Positions 4,399 through 35,659 of a stretch of DNA of 64,000 bases are shown piece after piece. A program made the position numbers and the translations under genes. The stretch comes from Paramylibacter kogurei (GTDB taxonomy: Bacteria > Pseudomonadota > Alphaproteobacteria > Rhodobacterales > Rhodobacteraceae). The first letter of the stretch is position 1. Each line of letters opens with the position of its first letter. The stretch is taken from positions 1-64,000 of the forward strand of contig NZ_MDGM01000007.1 of assembly GCF_002742285.1 (NCBI RefSeq), written 5' to 3'. Under the pieces are notes generated by a model. It had not been told where the DNA came from, did no database searches, and saw only the letters and a program-made list of their open reading frames with translations.

Positions 4399-4863
4399 AT
4401 GAAAAAACTAAAATCTGCGCGACGATTTAGTGGCCCGACATTAATCGTTCCCTTGGCATTCATTACGTTTGGGTTGTTGAGCTATGCTTTGGGTTACGCT
4501 TTTTCGTTGCAACAGCGCAATTTTCGCGATGGCGCGATTGAACAACGCGTGCATGTGATGGAAATTGGGCGGCTCGCAACAGATAACAGCGCGGATATAA
4601 TCTATACCTTTGGAACCAAAAACAGCGAAGGCGAACCGGTTTTTTATGAAAATTCAGAATGGCCGACACGCCAAATTATTCACAATAAAGGTGATGTTGT
4701 GCCTGGATTATATAATCAACTTACGGGCCAAATTACGAGCATTGCGGTTTTTGAACGCCCGCAAGGGATGGTTTACATCCCCAAAATATTTGGCGGTTTT
4801 TTCATATTTGCGGGCGTATTGATCGGATATTTTTTCTGGCGTGACCCAGTGTATGAATATTAG
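4399..4863 (+). CDS. Small two-TM membrane protein, DUF3592-like
   Basis: The product is a 154-residue hypothetical membrane protein. It has a basic N-terminus, a transmembrane segment at about residues 13-33 and a second at about 128-148 (GGFFIFAGVLIGYFF). Between them is a domain of about 90 residues that probably faces the periplasm. The layout (helix, YxF-containing beta domain, GDVVPGLYN, helix) resembles DUF3592 proteins, but this rests on pattern only. The ATG at 4399 is preferred because it begins MKKLK before the first helix; an in-frame ATG 30 bp upstream has no better ribosome site. It ends 13 bp before the convergent DUF1150 gene. Its function is unknown. Confidence 0.7.
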   Translation: MKKLKSARRFSGPTLIVPLAFITFGLLSYALGYAFSLQQRNFRDGAIEQRVHVMEIGRLATDNSADIIYTFGTKNSEGEPVFYENSEWPTRQIIHNKGDVVPGLYNQLTGQITSIAVFERPQGMVYIPKIFGGFFIFAGVLIGYFFWRDPVYEY

Positions 4864-4876
4864 CGCCTATACGTGA

Positions 4877-5101
4877 TTAGTGCACGCTCACAGGTGTGAA
4901 TTCATATGTTCGTGCAACGGCAAATGCCGCACCGCGATCCGTGGCCAATGCAATACATTCGCCTGTTTCATCGTGAATGGCATATTTTGGTGCGTTTTCT
5001 TGTGTCCCTTCGAAAAATTCACGTGGAATTTCATCGGGATTGATGGCGCGCACATAAACCAGCCGCCCTGCATCCAGTGTTTCAGTTGCAAAATCGTCCA
5101 T
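4877..5101 (-). CDS. DUF1150 family protein
   Basis: The product is a 74-residue acidic protein with the DUF1150 pattern: an early RLVYVRAI stretch, then APKYAIHDETGECIALATDR. It lies directly downstream of hsp20 on the same strand with a 10-nt gap, the arrangement commonly seen in Rhodobacterales, so it is probably cotranscribed and heat inducible. I chose the ATG at 5101 (MDDFATETL); a longer frame would begin inside the hsp20 gene. The biochemical function is unknown. A role alongside the small heat-shock protein is inferred only from linkage. Confidence 0.85.
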   Translation of the reverse strand: MDDFATETLDAGRLVYVRAINPDEIPREFFEGTQENAPKYAIHDETGECIALATDRGAAFAVARTYEFTPVSVH

Positions 5102-5111
5102 CAGGTTCGCC

Positions 5112-5528
5112 CTATTTTTTGTGTTTAATTTCGATGGTTTGCACAACCGTATTTGGAATCGTGCGTTGCAGATCGACATGAAGCAATCCATTTTCCATGG
5201 ATGCGCCCGCGACCTCTACCCCATCGGCCAAGACAAAGCTACGCTGAAATTGGCGCGCAGCGATACCGCGATGCAGATAAACGCGGCCCTCTGAATCGTC
5301 TTCTTGGCGGCCACGGATCACCAGTTGGCTGTCTTCTAATGTGATCGACATATCCTGTTCACGAAACCCTGCAACCGCAAGTGTGATGCGATAAGATGTT
5401 TCAGAACTTTGTTCGATATTATACGGCGGGTAACCTTCGTTCCCCGATTTTGCGGATAATTCCACCAAACGATCCAACTGTTCAAACCCCAACAAAAACG
5501 GGTGTGACGCGAATGAAATTTTGCTCAT
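5112..5528 (-). CDS. Small heat-shock protein, Hsp20/alpha-crystallin family
   Basis: The product (138 residues) is an ATP-independent holdase that binds unfolding proteins in the cytoplasm and passes them to DnaK/ClpB. The alpha-crystallin domain spans about residues 35-130 (YRITLAVAGF, LVIRG, then IAARQFQRSFVL and the NGLLHVDL strand). The short tail carries an IEI motif of the I-x-I type that mediates oligomer contacts in the family. Its length and N-terminal sequence fit the IbpA-like class. An RpoH-like promoter lies about 60 bp upstream and DUF1150 follows, so heat-shock control is likely. Confidence 0.95.
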   Translation of the reverse strand: MSKISFASHPFLLGFEQLDRLVELSAKSGNEGYPPYNIEQSSETSYRITLAVAGFREQDMSITLEDSQLVIRGRQEDDSEGRVYLHRGIAARQFQRSFVLADGVEVAGASMENGLLHVDLQRTIPNTVVQTIEIKHKK

Positions 5529-5585
5529 GCGAAGCCCTTGTATAAGCGACTAATAATTCAGGCCCCAATTGGCGACCCAGTGTAT

Positions 5586-5615
5586 AATATGGGGAAAACC
5601 AAATAATTTCTCAAG
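5586..5615 (-). promoter_or_regulatory. RpoH (sigma-32)-like promoter of hsp20
   Basis: Reading the minus strand, CTTGAG (5615-5610) is separated by 15 nt from CCCCATATT (5594-5586). This is very close to the sigma-32 consensus CTTGAA and CCCCATnT with 13-17 nt spacing. Transcription would begin near 5578, leaving a leader of about 50 nt before the hsp20 ATG. Confidence 0.7.
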
Positions 5616-5629
5616 TAGTTTGAGAAATT
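5605..5629. promoter_or_regulatory. Perfect 10-bp inverted repeat overlapping the hsp20 -35 box
   Basis: AATTTCTCAA (5605-5614), a 5-nt spacer and TTGAGAAATT (5620-5629) form a perfect palindrome. It covers the -35 element of the RpoH-like promoter, so a repressor operator is possible. It lies between the divergent hsp20 and DUF465 genes. Confidence 0.5.
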
Positions 5630-5686
5630 CTTGTTTTAACTGTGTCAATTGCGGTATAGCGCAGGCTTAACCCATTCATCGCGAGA

Positions 5687-5914
5687 ATGCTTGTGGACGA
5701 TAAAAAACGAAAAATGGATCGTACCGCTGTGTTGCAGGTAGAATTGGCAACGATGCGTCAACAACACCGCGATTTGGATATGGCAATTGATGCCATTCAC
5801 GAAACCGCAAATCCCGATATGTTGACCTTGCAACGATTGAAACGGCAAAAATTGGCGATCAAAGATGAAATTTCACGTCTTGAGGACGAGATTACGCCGG
5901 ATATTATTGCCTAA
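5687..5914 (+). CDS. DUF465 (YdcH-like) family protein
   Basis: The product is a 75-residue, mostly helical protein with the DUF465/YdcH pattern: LATMRQQHRDLDMAIDAI, then LQRLKRQKLAIKDEISRLED, ending ITPDIIA. Both halves look like heptad coiled coil, and the family is expected to form a helical hairpin. The function is unknown. The ATG at 5687 gives the longest product. An in-frame ATG at 5714 (MDRTAV) would start close to the conserved region and is also possible. It is followed 47 bp later by purE and is divergent from hsp20. Confidence 0.8.
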   Translation: MLVDDKKRKMDRTAVLQVELATMRQQHRDLDMAIDAIHETANPDMLTLQRLKRQKLAIKDEISRLEDEITPDIIA

Positions 5915-5961
5915 GCGGGTAAAATTGGCTACATCCCGATTTTGCACAGCCAGATAGGGCA

Positions 5962-6456
5962 ATGAATATGAACACCATCAAAGTTGGCATCATCATGGGC
6001 AGCCAATCTGATTGGCCAACAATGAAATTGGCGGCGGATATTTTGGATGAATTGGGCGTAGCCTATGAAACGAAAATCGTCTCGGCACATCGCACACCTG
6101 ATCGTTTGTGGTCATATGGCAAAACGGCGGCGGAACGTGGATTACAGGTCATTATTGCTGGCGCTGGTGGGGCGGCACATTTGCCAGGAATGATGGCGTC
6201 AAAAACCCGTGTGCCAGTTTTGGGCGTTCCCATTCAAACCAAAGCGTTAAGCGGTGTTGATAGCCTTTATTCTATCGTGCAAATGCCCAAAGGTTTTCCC
6301 GTGGGCACAATGGCAATTGGTGCGGCGGGTGCTGCCAACGCAGGATTAATGGCCGCGGCAATCTTGGCCAATAGTGATGCGGATCTGGCGACCCGTTTGG
6401 ATGATTGGCGCGCGGCATTATCAAATTCAATTGCGGATGAACCAACAGATGACTAA
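5962..6456 (+). CDS. purE: 5-(carboxyamino)imidazole ribonucleotide mutase
   Basis: PurE (164 residues) converts N5-carboxyaminoimidazole ribonucleotide to 4-carboxy-AIR in purine synthesis. Class I signatures are present: [13 protein letters not shown] near the N-terminus (phosphate and active-site loop), [10 protein letters not shown] (catalytic His) and [13 protein letters not shown]. The length matches the family. The start at 5962 follows an AGGGC stretch; the ATG two codons later is also possible. The 3' end overlaps the start of purK by 8 nt, so the two are translationally coupled, consistent with sequential steps. Confidence 0.97.
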
Positions 6457-30269: not shown

Positions 30270-30395
30270 CATTGCTGATATTCCCTTTTACATTTCCTTC
30301 CAGCCCATCCAATGCGCTTTGTCGGCTTTCCATTTTTGATGGCTTGTGCAATTCCGAGAAAAGCGTAATCTGACGTTACGTAATGGGGTGCAAAA

Positions 30396-31631
30396 ATGGA
30401 CTGGCTGAAACTTAGGCTGTTTCGATGGCTTGAGCTGGGGACCGAAGGTTATGCGGTACATACACGCCGCAGATTGATCGTAATAAATGTGTTGATTACG
30501 TTCGTTTCTGCGCTCTCAATCTTTTACGCAATTTTCTTTGCCATTTATGATATCAATACGTTCAAGCTCCCCATCATTTTCATGATTGTTATGGGTGCGT
30601 TGTTCTTGCGCACACCAATGTTGCACAATCAGGGGCGATACTATGGCGATTTGTATAATCTGAGCGTCTGGCTGATCTATGGCGGTATTCTGGTACATAT
30701 ATTTGGATCGGATTCCGGCATTCACTATTTCTTTCTTGGTGGCGCAGCGGGTGCGATCCTTATCTTTAATCTAAGCCGGAACGGCGTATCTGTTTTTTCG
30801 TTTTTCTCACAAATGATGATCTTTTTCTACGCCGAGGTGTATCGCATCCCACCACGTGATGCATATGCGTTGCCACAGAATTTTGAATACACGATGTTTG
30901 TGCTTAACATATTGTTTTTGCTGCTATTTCATTATTGTTTGATCAGCTATGCGGTTTATCTTTCAAAGACGGCGGAAACGTCGCTTACCAAAGAATGTGA
31001 GTATTCTGATCGTTTGTTGGAAAATATGATGCCGCGATTGATTTCAAATACGTTGAAAAGTGATCCGTGCAAAACAATTGCGAAACGGCACAACGATGCG
31101 ACAATAATTTTTGCTAAAATTGCGGGTTTTGAACAAGTTTACGAAACCAAAAGCCCCAAAGAATCCGTCGAGCTTTTGACACGCATATTTTCCGAATTTG
31201 ATCATTTGGCGCAGGAACATGGTTTGGAAAAAATCAAAACCGATGGATCAATCTTTATGGCGGCGGCTGGCTTTCCTGAGCCAACAAAAAAACACGCTGA
31301 AAACGTTGCTCTTGTAGCGCTAGAAATGCGCAAGGTCATCGCAAAATACGCTCAACAAGCAGATGTGGATATTACATTGCAGTGCGGCATTCATTCTGGG
31401 CCCGTGGTGGCCGGTGTAATCGGCACGCAAAAACCATTCTACGATGTTTGGGGGGATACGGTGAACCTTGCCGCGCGCCTGGAAACAAATGCCAAGCCAA
31501 ATCATATCCAAATTTCTGATTCTACCAAGCAACTCCTGACAGGTGATTTTCAGTTTCAAAAACGCGGGCGCATAGCGTTAAAGGGAAAGGGAAAGGTTGA
31601 AATTTGGTATATCCTAGATCGGATATCTTAA
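30396..31631 (+). CDS. Degenerate class III nucleotidyl cyclase with six-helix membrane domain
   Basis: The product (411 residues) has a basic N-terminus (LFRWLELGTEGY), about six membrane helices (about residues 25-195), a linker (EYSDRLLENMMPRLI) and a class III cyclase homology domain (about 230-405). Both metal-binding aspartates are lost: FAKIAGF has K241 and KTDGSIF has S285. The adenine-contact Lys K281, Asp D350 and the transition-state pair N357/R361 (VNLAARLE) are kept. This is the complement supplied by the C2 half of mammalian adenylyl cyclases, whose matching motif is KTIGSTY. Alone it is probably inactive. It is followed by an intact paralogue with which it aligns without gaps. 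A regulatory or heterodimeric role is inference. Confidence 0.88.
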   Translation: MDWLKLRLFRWLELGTEGYAVHTRRRLIVINVLITFVSALSIFYAIFFAIYDINTFKLPIIFMIVMGALFLRTPMLHNQGRYYGDLYNLSVWLIYGGILVHIFGSDSGIHYFFLGGAAGAILIFNLSRNGVSVFSFFSQMMIFFYAEVYRIPPRDAYALPQNFEYTMFVLNILFLLLFHYCLISYAVYLSKTAETSLTKECEYSDRLLENMMPRLISNTLKSDPCKTIAKRHNDATIIFAKIAGFEQVYETKSPKESVELLTRIFSEFDHLAQEHGLEKIKTDGSIFMAAAGFPEPTKKHAENVALVALEMRKVIAKYAQQADVDITLQCGIHSGPVVAGVIGTQKPFYDVWGDTVNLAARLETNAKPNHIQISDSTKQLLTGDFQFQKRGRIALKGKGKVEIWYILDRIS

Positions 31632-31742
31632 TTATGCCCAATATTATAACAGCCAACCCAACCCTTGATTGAATTACGACCTTTTCCCTCTTGTAAGAAC
31701 TGTTTCTTTACCTAATGTATGGCAAAGTTAAGGGGAAATATC

Positions 31743-32975
31743 TTGGAAAAGCTTAAGGCTCGTTTTTTCAAATGGTTTGAAATCGGTACCGAAGGGTATG
31801 ATATCGGTACACGCAGACGGTTGATTGTCACAAATGTGCTCATCACAGTGATCGCCGTACTGTCGGTTCTATACGCGGTCATTTTCTTTCTGTTTGATCC
31901 GGTCGAATATATTATTCCCGTATTGATGATGTTTTCGGTTGCAGGTCTGTTTCTGTTTACACCGTTTTTTCACAAACTTAACCCCTATGTCGGAAGTGTT
32001 TATAACCTGTCGATTTGGTTAATCTATGGGATGACGTTGGTTTACATTTTTGGCTCTGACTCTGGCATTCACTATTTCTTCTTGGGCGGCGCTACAGGTG
32101 CGATCCTTATCTACAACGTTAGCGCCAATCCAATTTCGATTTTTTCAATTATCGTACAAACATCCATTTTCCTATCTGCCGAATTTTTCTGGCCGCAATC
32201 AGCACATTGGTTGGAATTACCACAAATTCACCAATCCATTCTGGCCTTTGTCAATATTGTTTCAGTTCTTATGTTGCAGTTTTGTTTGGTCAGTTATGCC
32301 TTTTATCAAGCGCACACCGCAGAAGCATTGCTTGAAAAAGAATACCAATATTCCGAACAATTGCTTGCCAATATGATGCCAACATCCATCGCGGCACAAT
32401 TGAAACGCGAGCCCGAAAAAACCATTGCGGATGGGCATGAACAAGCAACAATCTTGTTTGCGGATATTGTCGGATTTACTGAGCGCGCATCAAACCAACC
32501 CCCGGAAAAGGTAGTTGCGTTTTTAAACGAACTTTTCACCAAATTTGACGCGCTTGCGACCAAACATGGATTGGAAAAAATCAAAACCCTTGGTGATGCA
32601 TTCATGGTCGCCGGCGGTATGCCATCTGCGCAGGATGATCATTGTGAACGCGTCGCTGATATGGCGCTGGAAATGCTCGATATTGCCAAAAGCATGCCAG
32701 AAAATTTCGGGAAAAAGGTTCAGTTGCGCATCGGTATTCATTCGGGTCCCGTGGTTGCAGGTGTGATTGGAACCAAAAAGCCATTTTACGATGTTTGGGG
32801 CGACACTGTGAATTTGGCGGCCCGTTTGGAAACCAATGGCCATATCAACCGTATTCAGGTCACCACATCCACCAAAGAGCTTCTTGAACATGCATTCACA
32901 TTTGAATTGCGTGGACAGGTTGAAATCAAAGGCAAGGGCAAGATCGACGTGTGGTATCTGATCGGTCGCAAATAG
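31743..32975 (+). CDS. Membrane class III adenylate cyclase (intact paralogue)
   Basis: The product (410 residues from TTG) has the same architecture as the gene before it: six membrane helices, a linker (QYSEQLLANMMPTSIA) and a cyclase domain. The catalytic set is complete: D241 in FADIVGFT, D285 in KTLGDAF, the adenine-contact K281 and D350, and N357/R361 in YDVWGDTVNLAARLE. It should make cAMP. I choose the TTG at 31743 because AAGGGG lies 7 nt upstream and this start makes the two paralogues align residue for residue; an ATG at 31719 has no ribosome site. The 111-bp spacer after the first copy shows no terminator, so cotranscription is likely. Confidence 0.9.
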   Translation: MEKLKARFFKWFEIGTEGYDIGTRRRLIVTNVLITVIAVLSVLYAVIFFLFDPVEYIIPVLMMFSVAGLFLFTPFFHKLNPYVGSVYNLSIWLIYGMTLVYIFGSDSGIHYFFLGGATGAILIYNVSANPISIFSIIVQTSIFLSAEFFWPQSAHWLELPQIHQSILAFVNIVSVLMLQFCLVSYAFYQAHTAEALLEKEYQYSEQLLANMMPTSIAAQLKREPEKTIADGHEQATILFADIVGFTERASNQPPEKVVAFLNELFTKFDALATKHGLEKIKTLGDAFMVAGGMPSAQDDHCERVADMALEMLDIAKSMPENFGKKVQLRIGIHSGPVVAGVIGTKKPFYDVWGDTVNLAARLETNGHINRIQVTTSTKELLEHAFTFELRGQVEIKGKGKIDVWYLIGRK

Positions 32976-32978
32976 TCG

Positions 32979-34517
32979 TTACTTTTCTGTGAATTTCAAT
33001 TCAATCCGTCGGTTTAATGCATACGCATTTGCATTTCTCGCTGGATCTATGGGTTGAAATTCCCCAAATCCATTTGCCGCTAATCGATTAGCGGGAATCC
33101 CTAACGGGTTGATCAAGTATTTCACAACTGAAAGTGCGCGTGCTTGGCTAAGCTCCCAATTGTCTTTGAATTGCCCGTTGCCCGAAATCGGGATGACATC
33201 TGTATGTCCATCAACGCGCAAAATCCAATCGATTTCGCTTGGAATTTCATCGGCGATTTCGCTCAAGATACCTGCCACTTTTTGCAATTCTTGCTGACCA
33301 CCAGCGCCCAAATCGGCAGATCCGACATCGAACAACACTTCTGATGAGAAAACAAATCGATCACCGACCATGCGCACGCCTTCTTGGCCTTCTAACAAAT
33401 CACGCACGCGGCCAAAAAACTCTGATCTAAATTTTTCCAAATCTTTGGCTTCGGCTTCCAGACGTTCGCGCTCTTTCTTTTCCAATGCTGCCAGTTTTTT
33501 CTGTTCCGCTGCGGTGCGCGCTAATGCGGCATTCAGATTGCTACCAAGTGTTTGGATTTGCACCTGCGCTTCGATATCTTTGGCCTGTGCATCATCAAGC
33601 AAGGCTTGCAGTTGGTTCAACTGTTGGCGCAATTCAAGCGTTTGTTGATTAAGCAATGCCAGCTCTCTTTGCCCTTCTGCATTGATCTCTTTTTGTGTGG
33701 CAAGCAAGCTGTTCGCCTGCGCCAACAATGCAGCTTGTTTTTGTTTTTCGCTTAATGTTTGGCCAGCTGCGTTTTCCAACTCTTCTTGTGCGGCTTTGGC
33801 TGCGGCAAGCAAGGTTAAGGATTCCTCTGCCTCTTTGCGTTTTGCTTCAAGTGCAAGCGTCATCGCACTTAACTCTGCATCACTTTCGCTCAATCGTTTG
33901 CGCAATGCTTCAGCGGCGGCCATTTCGGTCAATTTGTCTTTCTCTGCCTCTGACAAGGCGGTTGCTTGATTTTCGGATTTCTCGTTTAAATCAGCTATCA
34001 ACGCTTCCATTGCGTCGCGCTTGGCGGCTGCTAAACGCGCCTCTTCTGCGGATTTGTCCAATTCACTGCGTGCCTGCGCAAGCGCCAATTGAACCGCTTC
34101 CTTTTCGCTGATTTCTGTGGCGTTTTGTGCAGCCAGTTGTTGATTATCCAATTCCAATTGGCTTTTCTGGGCAAGCAATCCTGCCACCTGTTGTTCAAAA
34201 CTTGCAACCTGACCTTCTAGATTATCAATGGTATCCTCAGCGCTACGAAGCGAATTTTGAAACGCATTTACGCTGCCTTGTAGGCGCAATGATTTTTGCT
34301 CTTCCAATCCCAATGCCGTGGCGAGCCCAGCAATCTGGGCATTCAGGCTATCCAATTCTTCGCCCTGCCCTGTGATTGTTTCGCGCAGCACAAATTGAAC
34401 GATCATAAAAATCGACAAAACAAATGTTAAAACCAACAATAATGCGGTCATGGCATCGACAAAGCCTGGCCAGATATTGGCGTTAAATCGATTTGCTGTG
34501 CGTCGGGACAGGGCCAT
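32979..34517 (-). CDS. MotB/OmpA-like peptidoglycan-binding protein with long coiled coil
   Basis: The product is 512 residues. A short basic start is followed by ANIWPGFVDAMTALLLVLTFVLSIF, a MotB/ExbD-type plug and single membrane helix (about residues 15-43) with the Asp of FVDAMTAL. A very long coiled coil follows (about 55-360, Ala/Glu/Gln/Leu heptads). Then comes an OmpA-like peptidoglycan domain (about 375-510) with the signature VDGHTDVIPISGNGQFKDNWELSQARA. It is 5 bp downstream of a MotA-like gene. Together they look like an ion-driven stator that reaches through the periplasm. The function is unknown; it is not flagellar, since no flagellar genes are near. Confidence 0.88.
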   Translation of the reverse strand: MALSRRTANRFNANIWPGFVDAMTALLLVLTFVLSIFMIVQFVLRETITGQGEELDSLNAQIAGLATALGLEEQKSLRLQGSVNAFQNSLRSAEDTIDNLEGQVASFEQQVAGLLAQKSQLELDNQQLAAQNATEISEKEAVQLALAQARSELDKSAEEARLAAAKRDAMEALIADLNEKSENQATALSEAEKDKLTEMAAAEALRKRLSESDAELSAMTLALEAKRKEAEESLTLLAAAKAAQEELENAAGQTLSEKQKQAALLAQANSLLATQKEINAEGQRELALLNQQTLELRQQLNQLQALLDDAQAKDIEAQVQIQTLGSNLNAALARTAAEQKKLAALEKKERERLEAEAKDLEKFRSEFFGRVRDLLEGQEGVRMVGDRFVFSSEVLFDVGSADLGAGGQQELQKVAGILSEIADEIPSEIDWILRVDGHTDVIPISGNGQFKDNWELSQARALSVVKYLINPLGIPANRLAANGFGEFQPIDPARNANAYALNRRIELKFTEK

Positions 34518-34522
34518 AGCGG

Positions 34523-35659
34523 TTATCGTTTACCCAACTGTGCAATGTTTTTATTCAAAAGGCTCAGGTCGCTTCGCAATTCGGATAAACCTTGGGCACG
34601 CCCTGCGGCCATTTCCTCGAGCATACGGGATAATTGACCGTCCATGCTGCGCAATCGCATTCGCGTTTCGGCGTCTAAAATGCCATCACCTTCGGCTTGC
34701 ATTCGCGCGATTGCATCAACGATTTGCGATTGTCCACGGGCAATTTCCGATAATGATTGCGCATTGTTTGATTGGGCAAGGTTGGCATGTTCGATCATCT
34801 GTTCAACGGCATTTGCCATCTGATCCATACGACCGGCCGTTTGTGCCAAAATTACTTGCAACCCTTCCATTTGAATACTGGCACTTTCAAACAGGCCCGC
34901 GGACATGATTGCGTCGCCACCATCACTGGTAGAGCCAAGTTTGGTGATGGACGAAAGCCATTCTTCTAGTTCACCATAAAATCGATTTTGACCGCGCCCA
35001 GAAAACAGATCAAGCAATCCAACAATCAATGAACCTGCCAAACCCAAAAGCGATGATCCAAACGCGGTGCCCATTCCACCCAACTGCGCCTCAAGCCCCG
35101 TCATCAGATTGTCAAACACACCCATCGCTGAATCGCCCTCTTGCGGGGCGAGCGATCGGATCGTGTCCACCACCGCAGGAATGGTCGTGGCAAGCCCGTA
35201 AAACGTGCCCAAAAGCCCAAGAAAAATCAGTAAGTTAATGATATATCGGGTTATTTCACGCCCTTCATCCAATCGCGTGGCGACAGAATCCAAGATTGAA
35301 CGTGTGGACGTTGACGTTAACGCAAACCGCGCAGCACGTTCGGATAACATCGCCGCCAATGATGCCAGAATATTTGGCGCCTTCACAAAATCATGGCCCG
35401 GACGATCAAATGCAAAACCTTCGATCCAGTTAACCGATTTTATCAATGTGAATACCTGCCAAAAGCACGAAATCAAGCCTGCAAGAAACACCAAGATAAT
35501 AACGCCATTTAAATATGGGGACGCCAAGAAAATTGGTGAAACTGCGGGATATGCGAAATAAGTGCCAACGGAAACCAACCCAACCAAAATCATCATTGTG
35601 ATGATTTGGTTCACGGGTTGCGTGAATCGCACATGTATTTGCCTGTCTAAACTTGTCAT
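34523..35659 (-). CDS. MotA/TolQ/ExbB-like proton channel family protein
   Basis: The product is 378 residues. Two helices lie near the N-terminus (about 18-40 and 48-70). A third and fourth are in the channel domain (IINLLIFLGLLGTFYGLATTI and GMGTAFGSSLLGLAGSLIVGLLDLF), matching the MotA_ExbB core with its conserved GLLGTF and GLAGSL. The C-terminal 130 residues are a cytoplasmic helical tail (IEHANLAQSNNAQSL...). It pairs with the downstream OmpA-like protein. The two resemble the ZorA/ZorB stator of Zorya in layout, but no ZorC/D/E gene is present. Confidence 0.87.
   Translation of the reverse strand: MTSLDRQIHVRFTQPVNQIITMMILVGLVSVGTYFAYPAVSPIFLASPYLNGVIILVFLAGLISCFWQVFTLIKSVNWIEGFAFDRPGHDFVKAPNILASLAAMLSERAARFALTSTSTRSILDSVATRLDEGREITRYIINLLIFLGLLGTFYGLATTIPAVVDTIRSLAPQEGDSAMGVFDNLMTGLEAQLGGMGTAFGSSLLGLAGSLIVGLLDLFSGRGQNRFYGELEEWLSSITKLGSTSDGGDAIMSAGLFESASIQMEGLQVILAQTAGRMDQMANAVEQMIEHANLAQSNNAQSLSEIARGQSQIVDAIARMQAEGDGILDAETRMRLRSMDGQLSRMLEEMAAGRAQGLSELRSDLSLLNKNIAQLGKR

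Follow-up and report, generated by a model that had tools for sequence, protein, structure and literature searches.

The window analysed here, a stretch of 64,000 nucleotides (positions 1 to 64,000 of contig NZ_MDGM01000007.1 of Paramylibacter kogurei), carries two cyclase-like genes with intact frames that lie head to tail on the forward strand, flanked by clpA upstream and by an OmpA-family gene downstream on the opposite strand. The first gene, copy 1 (30396-31631, 411 aa), encodes a homologue of MASE7-class III cyclases that is predicted to be inactive alone, and the second gene, copy 2 (31719-32975, 418 aa), encodes a MASE7-class III adenylyl cyclase that is catalytically complete, as judged from the open reading frames, the Pfam matches and the active-site residues. 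The two proteins share about 51% identity along their length. Both matched the Pfam families MASE7 (PF20967) and Guanylate_cyc (PF00211) far above the cut-off, with Guanylate_cyc scores of 188 bits for copy 1 and 210 bits for copy 2 against a cut-off of 21.9, and in both the MASE7 domain is N-terminal to the cyclase domain. The six-helix MASE7 membrane domain occupies 30444-30995 in copy 1 and 31797-32345 in copy 2, and the cyclase homology domain 31080-31613 and 32433-32963, respectively. AlphaFold models with a mean pLDDT of 82 for copy 1 and 81 for copy 2 displayed six membrane helices, a long TM6 leading into the helical element that transduces the signal, and the full cyclase fold in both proteins. 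Among solved structures, the copy 1 model was best matched by mycobacterial Rv1625c/Cya, followed by mammalian C1 and C2 domains and other class III cyclases. Open reading frames, Pfam and the models thus agree with the earlier note on this DNA, which had proposed two tandem paralogues with six helices and a class III cyclase domain each.

The active sites of class III cyclases arise between two chains, and in the C2 domain of mammalian adenylyl cyclases the adenine is contacted by Lys938 and Asp1018. C1 provides both metal aspartates and the triphosphate arginine (Arg484), and C2 provides the adenine-specifying and transition-state residues Asn1025, Arg1029 and Lys1065 (PMC4174876, PMC9223806). 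Residue alignment showed that copy 2 has the two metal aspartates D249 (32463-32465) and D293 (32595-32597) and the triphosphate arginine R337 (32727-32729), and that the C2-side residues K289, N365 and R369 are also present in it. In copy 1, the first metal aspartate (D396 of AC5-C1) is replaced by K241 (31116-31118), the second (D440) by S285 (31248-31250) and the triphosphate arginine (R484 of AC5-C1) by Q329 (31380-31382). By contrast, the C2 side of copy 1 was kept, with the adenine contacts K281 (31236-31238) and D350 (31443-31445), the ribose residue N357 (31464-31466), the transition-state residue R361 (31476-31478) and K396 (31581-31583), which we take to be the counterpart of Lys1065 of IIC2. 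The two metal aspartates therefore stand in the same chain in copy 2 but not in copy 1 and, because they are missing, copy 1 is a homologue rather than an autonomous member of the active class III enzymes. The six copy 1 residues named in the earlier note (K241, S285, K281, D350, N357 and R361) were found as given there; both metal aspartates that it had assigned to copy 2 exist as well, although in copy 2's own numbering, which is offset by 8, they are D249 and D293 and not D241 and D285. The change of R329 to Q, on the same face and in both species that carry the gene, is a further loss that had gone unmentioned. In Rv1625c, the first metal aspartate is salt-bridged to Arg344 (PMC4174876), and position 329 of copy 1 is taken here as corresponding to that arginine, so the joint loss of D241 and R329 fits the loss of one functional unit.

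The second species is Amylibacter ulvae, whose copy 1 orthologue shows K241, A285 and Q329 at the C1-side positions and has kept the same five C2-side residues, and whose copy 2, like that of the window species, is catalytically complete by residue alignment. Because K241 recurs in A. ulvae, with A285 at the second site, the K241/S285 combination in copy 1 is not due to chance or sequencing error. Conservation in relatives had been suggested as a check; K241, N357 and R361 are indeed kept in A. ulvae, whereas S285 is not conserved to the letter. We then compared the pair with 20 intact cyclases from the genus and its nearest relatives, a set from which copy 2 was left out, and 56 cyclase-domain positions were invariant across these 20 sequences. 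Copy 1 differs in both species at five of the 56 (D241, N262, D285, Q297 and R329) and copy 2 at one (A301C). At position 241 copy 1 has K in both species against D in 20/20 relatives, and at position 329 it has Q in both against R in 20/20. All three C1-side catalytic side chains fall among the five changed positions (hypergeometric P 3.6e-4), while none of the five C2-side residues was changed (Fisher P 0.018 for the C1 versus the C2 side). Both aspartates had been named beforehand, therefore the independent addition to the earlier observation is R329. R361 is not fully invariant, being His in two single-copy relatives (L016 and L023) whose other catalytic residues are kept.

Comparison of the window species with A. 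ulvae gave dN/dS values of 0.04-0.05 for copy 1, about 0.03-0.04 for copy 2 and 0.01-0.07 for six neighbour genes, the exact values being rough because dS is near 1. Within copy 1, dN/dS was 0.084 for the cyclase domain (NG86 median; bootstrap 0.035-0.138) and 0.021 for the first 200 residues, which make up the membrane part. Neutral evolution of copy 1 is excluded. Pseudogenes would display a dN/dS near 1 or a broken frame, and copy 1 displays neither, its frame being intact in two species. The argument of the earlier note that copy 1 has not simply decayed, which had been based on the absence of stops and frameshifts and on the kept catalytic residues, is thus strengthened by a dN/dS of about 0.05. 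The cyclase domains of the two species are 83% identical in copy 1 and 96% in copy 2, and the membrane parts 95% in copy 1 (aa 1-200) and 94% in copy 2. The cyclase domain has evolved faster in copy 1 than in copy 2, and in copy 1 it is therefore less constrained than an active domain.

Most genus genomes with a full-length homologue have one complete MASE7 cyclase at the clpA-ompA locus (including L006-L008). The four pair sequences form one clade (support 97/94) in which the two copy 1 genes are sister to the two copy 2 genes, in a tree where copy 1 is one long branch open to attraction artefacts and where the pairing is not well resolved from the cyclase domain alone. Trees that put copy 1 outside the remaining cyclases of the genus were rejected (AU p 9e-7), as were trees that put it outside the remaining cyclases of the clpA locus (p 7e-4). 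The stem branch of copy 1 is about four times that of copy 2 (1.35 vs 0.33), with 1.82 vs 0.33 in the cyclase domain and 0.95 vs 0.35 in the membrane part, and the copy 1 tips are short (0.04 and 0.11). As reconstructed from these sequences, the pair is the product of a tandem duplication, after which copy 1 went through a burst of change and then came under renewed constraint.

We next consider how widespread such pairs are. No copy 1 orthologue beyond A. ulvae was found in a search of one genome per species, in 33 genus genomes or in 397 family genomes, and a pair of which one member lacks the metal ligands is proven in two species only, the window species and A. ulvae. In a further genome (G027), a cyclase fragment on the clpA side and another on the ompA side are each cut off by a contig end (L047 and L048); in the tree, the former falls with copy 1 (89/81) and the latter with copy 2 (76/81), with moderate support. 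This genome may hold a third, more divergent pair, and a single broken gene would look alike. Among the matches listed, the genus survey contained at least one further tandem cyclase pair (in G019), and the search of 296 order and 398 phylum genomes at least two others (in G858). All C1-side residues are present in both members of the G019 and G858 pairs, therefore asymmetry is not general among tandem cyclases. The G019 genes (4805-6193 and 6300-7622 of contig L049) form an independent tandem pair of related cyclases; each is catalytically complete, which makes the pair suitable as a symmetric control, and their contig has no match to clpA or ompA. The genome of the window species has two further class III cyclases (C13 and C2), which share 35-43% and 26-31% identity with the pair over the cyclase part only, and a MASE7 search of this genome found only copy 1 and copy 2.

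According to a review of membrane adenylyl cyclases (PMC9552081), the class III cyclases of bacteria work as homodimers, and a bacterial form with a fused dimer is not known. In Rv1625c-type cyclases, the active sites lie at the dimer interface and the two chains make complementary contributions to them (PMC4174876, PMC9552081). Rv1625c/Cya (PDB 7yzi/7yzk), the best sequence match for both copies as well as the best fold match for copy 1, resembles the pair in its six membrane helices, the passage of TM6 into a helical domain, and its cyclase domain. It differs in being a symmetric homodimer with two active sites, encoded by one gene and with no metal-less partner. The pair is related by descent to the Rv1625c-type bacterial cyclases; in its manner of working, by analogy, it would be most like mammalian C1/C2. 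In the mammalian enzymes AC5, AC8 and AC9 (1CJK, 6R3Q), C2 resembles copy 1 in having neither metal aspartate but all of the Lys, Asp, Asn, Arg and Lys residues, and at the second aspartate position it has S (AC5, AC8) or A (AC9), the same letters as in copy 1 of the window species and A. ulvae. At the positions of Lys241 and Gln329 of copy 1, however, mammalian C2 carries Ser and a basic residue; the changes in copy 1 and C2 are therefore convergent in kind but not in detail. In addition, mammalian C1 and C2 are fused in one chain, whereas here there are two genes, each with a MASE7 membrane domain, and copy 2 has an intact Asn/Arg pair (N365 and R369), which in mammalian C1 domains is disrupted; copy 2 is therefore a complete enzyme rather than a C1. 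Accordingly, the asymmetric C1/C2-like pair proposed in the earlier note stands on one side only: copy 1 is C2-like, with losses confined to the metal/phosphate face, a complete C2 face, the same state in A. ulvae and evidence of purifying selection, but copy 2 is not C1-like. Two unequal cyclase subunits encoded by separate genes, as in the pair, are found in soluble guanylyl cyclase alpha/beta and in chytrid RGC/NeoR, both of which are eukaryotic and have other sensory domains. RGC1/2 and NeoR are obligate heterodimers (PMC7655827), and RGC1/2 retain every residue required for cyclisation (PMC8815786). A literature search that covered a minority of subscription journals returned no report of a bacterial heterodimeric class III cyclase or of a metal-less partner.

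Because copy 1 has lost exactly the metal-holding residues and kept the other half of the active site, an unequal working pair is probable. The reading that we favour, with a probability of a little over one half (about 0.56), is that copy 1 is a maintained pseudoenzyme that would form a membrane heterodimer with copy 2 and have a C2-like role in a single productive site. In such a heterodimer, copy 2 would contribute D249 and D293 as metal ligands together with the C1-side arginine R337, and copy 1 would contribute K281, D350, N357, R361 and K396 for adenine, ribose and the transition state, as mammalian C2 does. At the opposite site, the Lys, Ser/Ala and Gln of copy 1 would face the intact adenine face of copy 2; this site would hold no catalytic metals and would be either silent or allosteric. 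The membrane domain of copy 1, distinct from that of copy 2 and highly conserved, would bring a second sensory input to the heterodimer. A dimer of copy 1 with copy 2 would thus contain one complete site, a copy 1 homodimer none and a copy 2 homodimer two. Copy 2 has lost nothing, so the specialisation would be on one side only and copy 2 would be able to homodimerise, so that two-site homodimers of copy 2 are probable as well. The sequences establish the anatomy of the pair, the recurrence of its pattern in two species, its duplication history and the purifying selection; dimerisation, single-site catalysis, cAMP as the product and the regulatory role we infer. The adjacency of the two genes on one strand, with no terminator-like site in between, their sister relationship and the cyclase fold kept in the models also speak for the heterodimer. 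Against it count the loss at Q329, which exceeds what mammalian C2 lost, the faster evolution of the copy 1 cyclase domain, the completeness of copy 2 and the restriction of the proven pair to two species.

Copy 1 could instead be a regulatory pseudoenzyme that lowers copy 2 output by pairing with it, or a homodimeric receptor, in either case with C2-side residues that serve nucleotide binding or fold stability. We regard such a damping or sensing role as unlikely but as deserving serious weight, since copy 2, with no catalytic residue lost, is complete on its own and independent of copy 1, the membrane domain is the most constrained part of copy 1 (dN/dS about 0.02) and its cyclase domain is freer, and the signal-transducing helix of copy 1 has changes common to both species (Q189L, E205D/N and A217S). 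However, binding or fold alone gives no reason for N357, R361 and K396 all to be kept in both species. The two copies might also work as separate homodimers that diverged mainly in the ligand sensed, or copy 1 might be partnered elsewhere, for which the other two class III cyclases of the genome would be candidates. This is improbable, as those two cyclases are far more distant, the MASE7 search of this genome found only copy 1 and copy 2, and adjacency and shared ancestry favour copy 2 as the partner.

The remaining explanations concern copy 1 by itself. A charged Lys fixed at position 241 in both species could suggest that copy 1 is an enzyme in its own right, using Lys241 in place of a metal or acting on a different substrate, but both metal ligands and Arg329 are gone and the class III two-metal mechanism requires the aspartates (PMC9223806), which makes this very improbable. 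Three lost catalytic residues and a long stem branch are what a decaying duplicate might have, and yet dN/dS is far below 1 at a dS of about 1 in both domains, copy 1 is intact in two species with no stops or frameshifts, and its catalytic losses all lie on one face of the active site; we therefore give decay scarcely any probability. The boldest reading of the pair, to which we give slightly less than an even chance, is that an asymmetric, C2-like membrane adenylyl cyclase encoded by two genes evolved independently in a bacterial lineage. Its dedicated metal-less subunit would complete one active site with the tandem paralogue and leave a regulatable non-catalytic second site, an analogue of an intermediate on the presumed path to the fused eukaryotic cyclases. 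The step from a symmetric homodimer to an asymmetric heterodimer would then be directly testable in bacteria, as single-copy relatives survive at the same locus, and two questions could be put to test: whether asymmetry preceded gene fusion, and what the second, non-catalytic site contributes.

The DNA around the two genes was inspected as well. The gap between copy 1 and copy 2 (31632-31718, forward strand) is 87 nt long; a scan of these 87 nt found no terminator-like site, and promoter scans gave no excess over shuffles. The stretches 5' of copy 1 (30335-30395) and 5' of copy 2 (31664-31718, the second half of the gap) are each nearly identical between the window species and A. ulvae, and may be separate promoters or a duplicated leader sequence. 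Within these conserved stretches, TTACNTAATG occurs near the start of both genes (at 30376 and 31708), and TTACNTAA occurs 4 times in the 64 kb, about the number expected by chance. On the other side of the pair, 32979-35659 encodes a protein of the OmpA family that has a long coiled coil, beside a membrane protein with no Pfam match; these two genes resemble a MotA/TolQ-like plus OmpA pair and lie beside the cyclase in many genus genomes with a readable flank.
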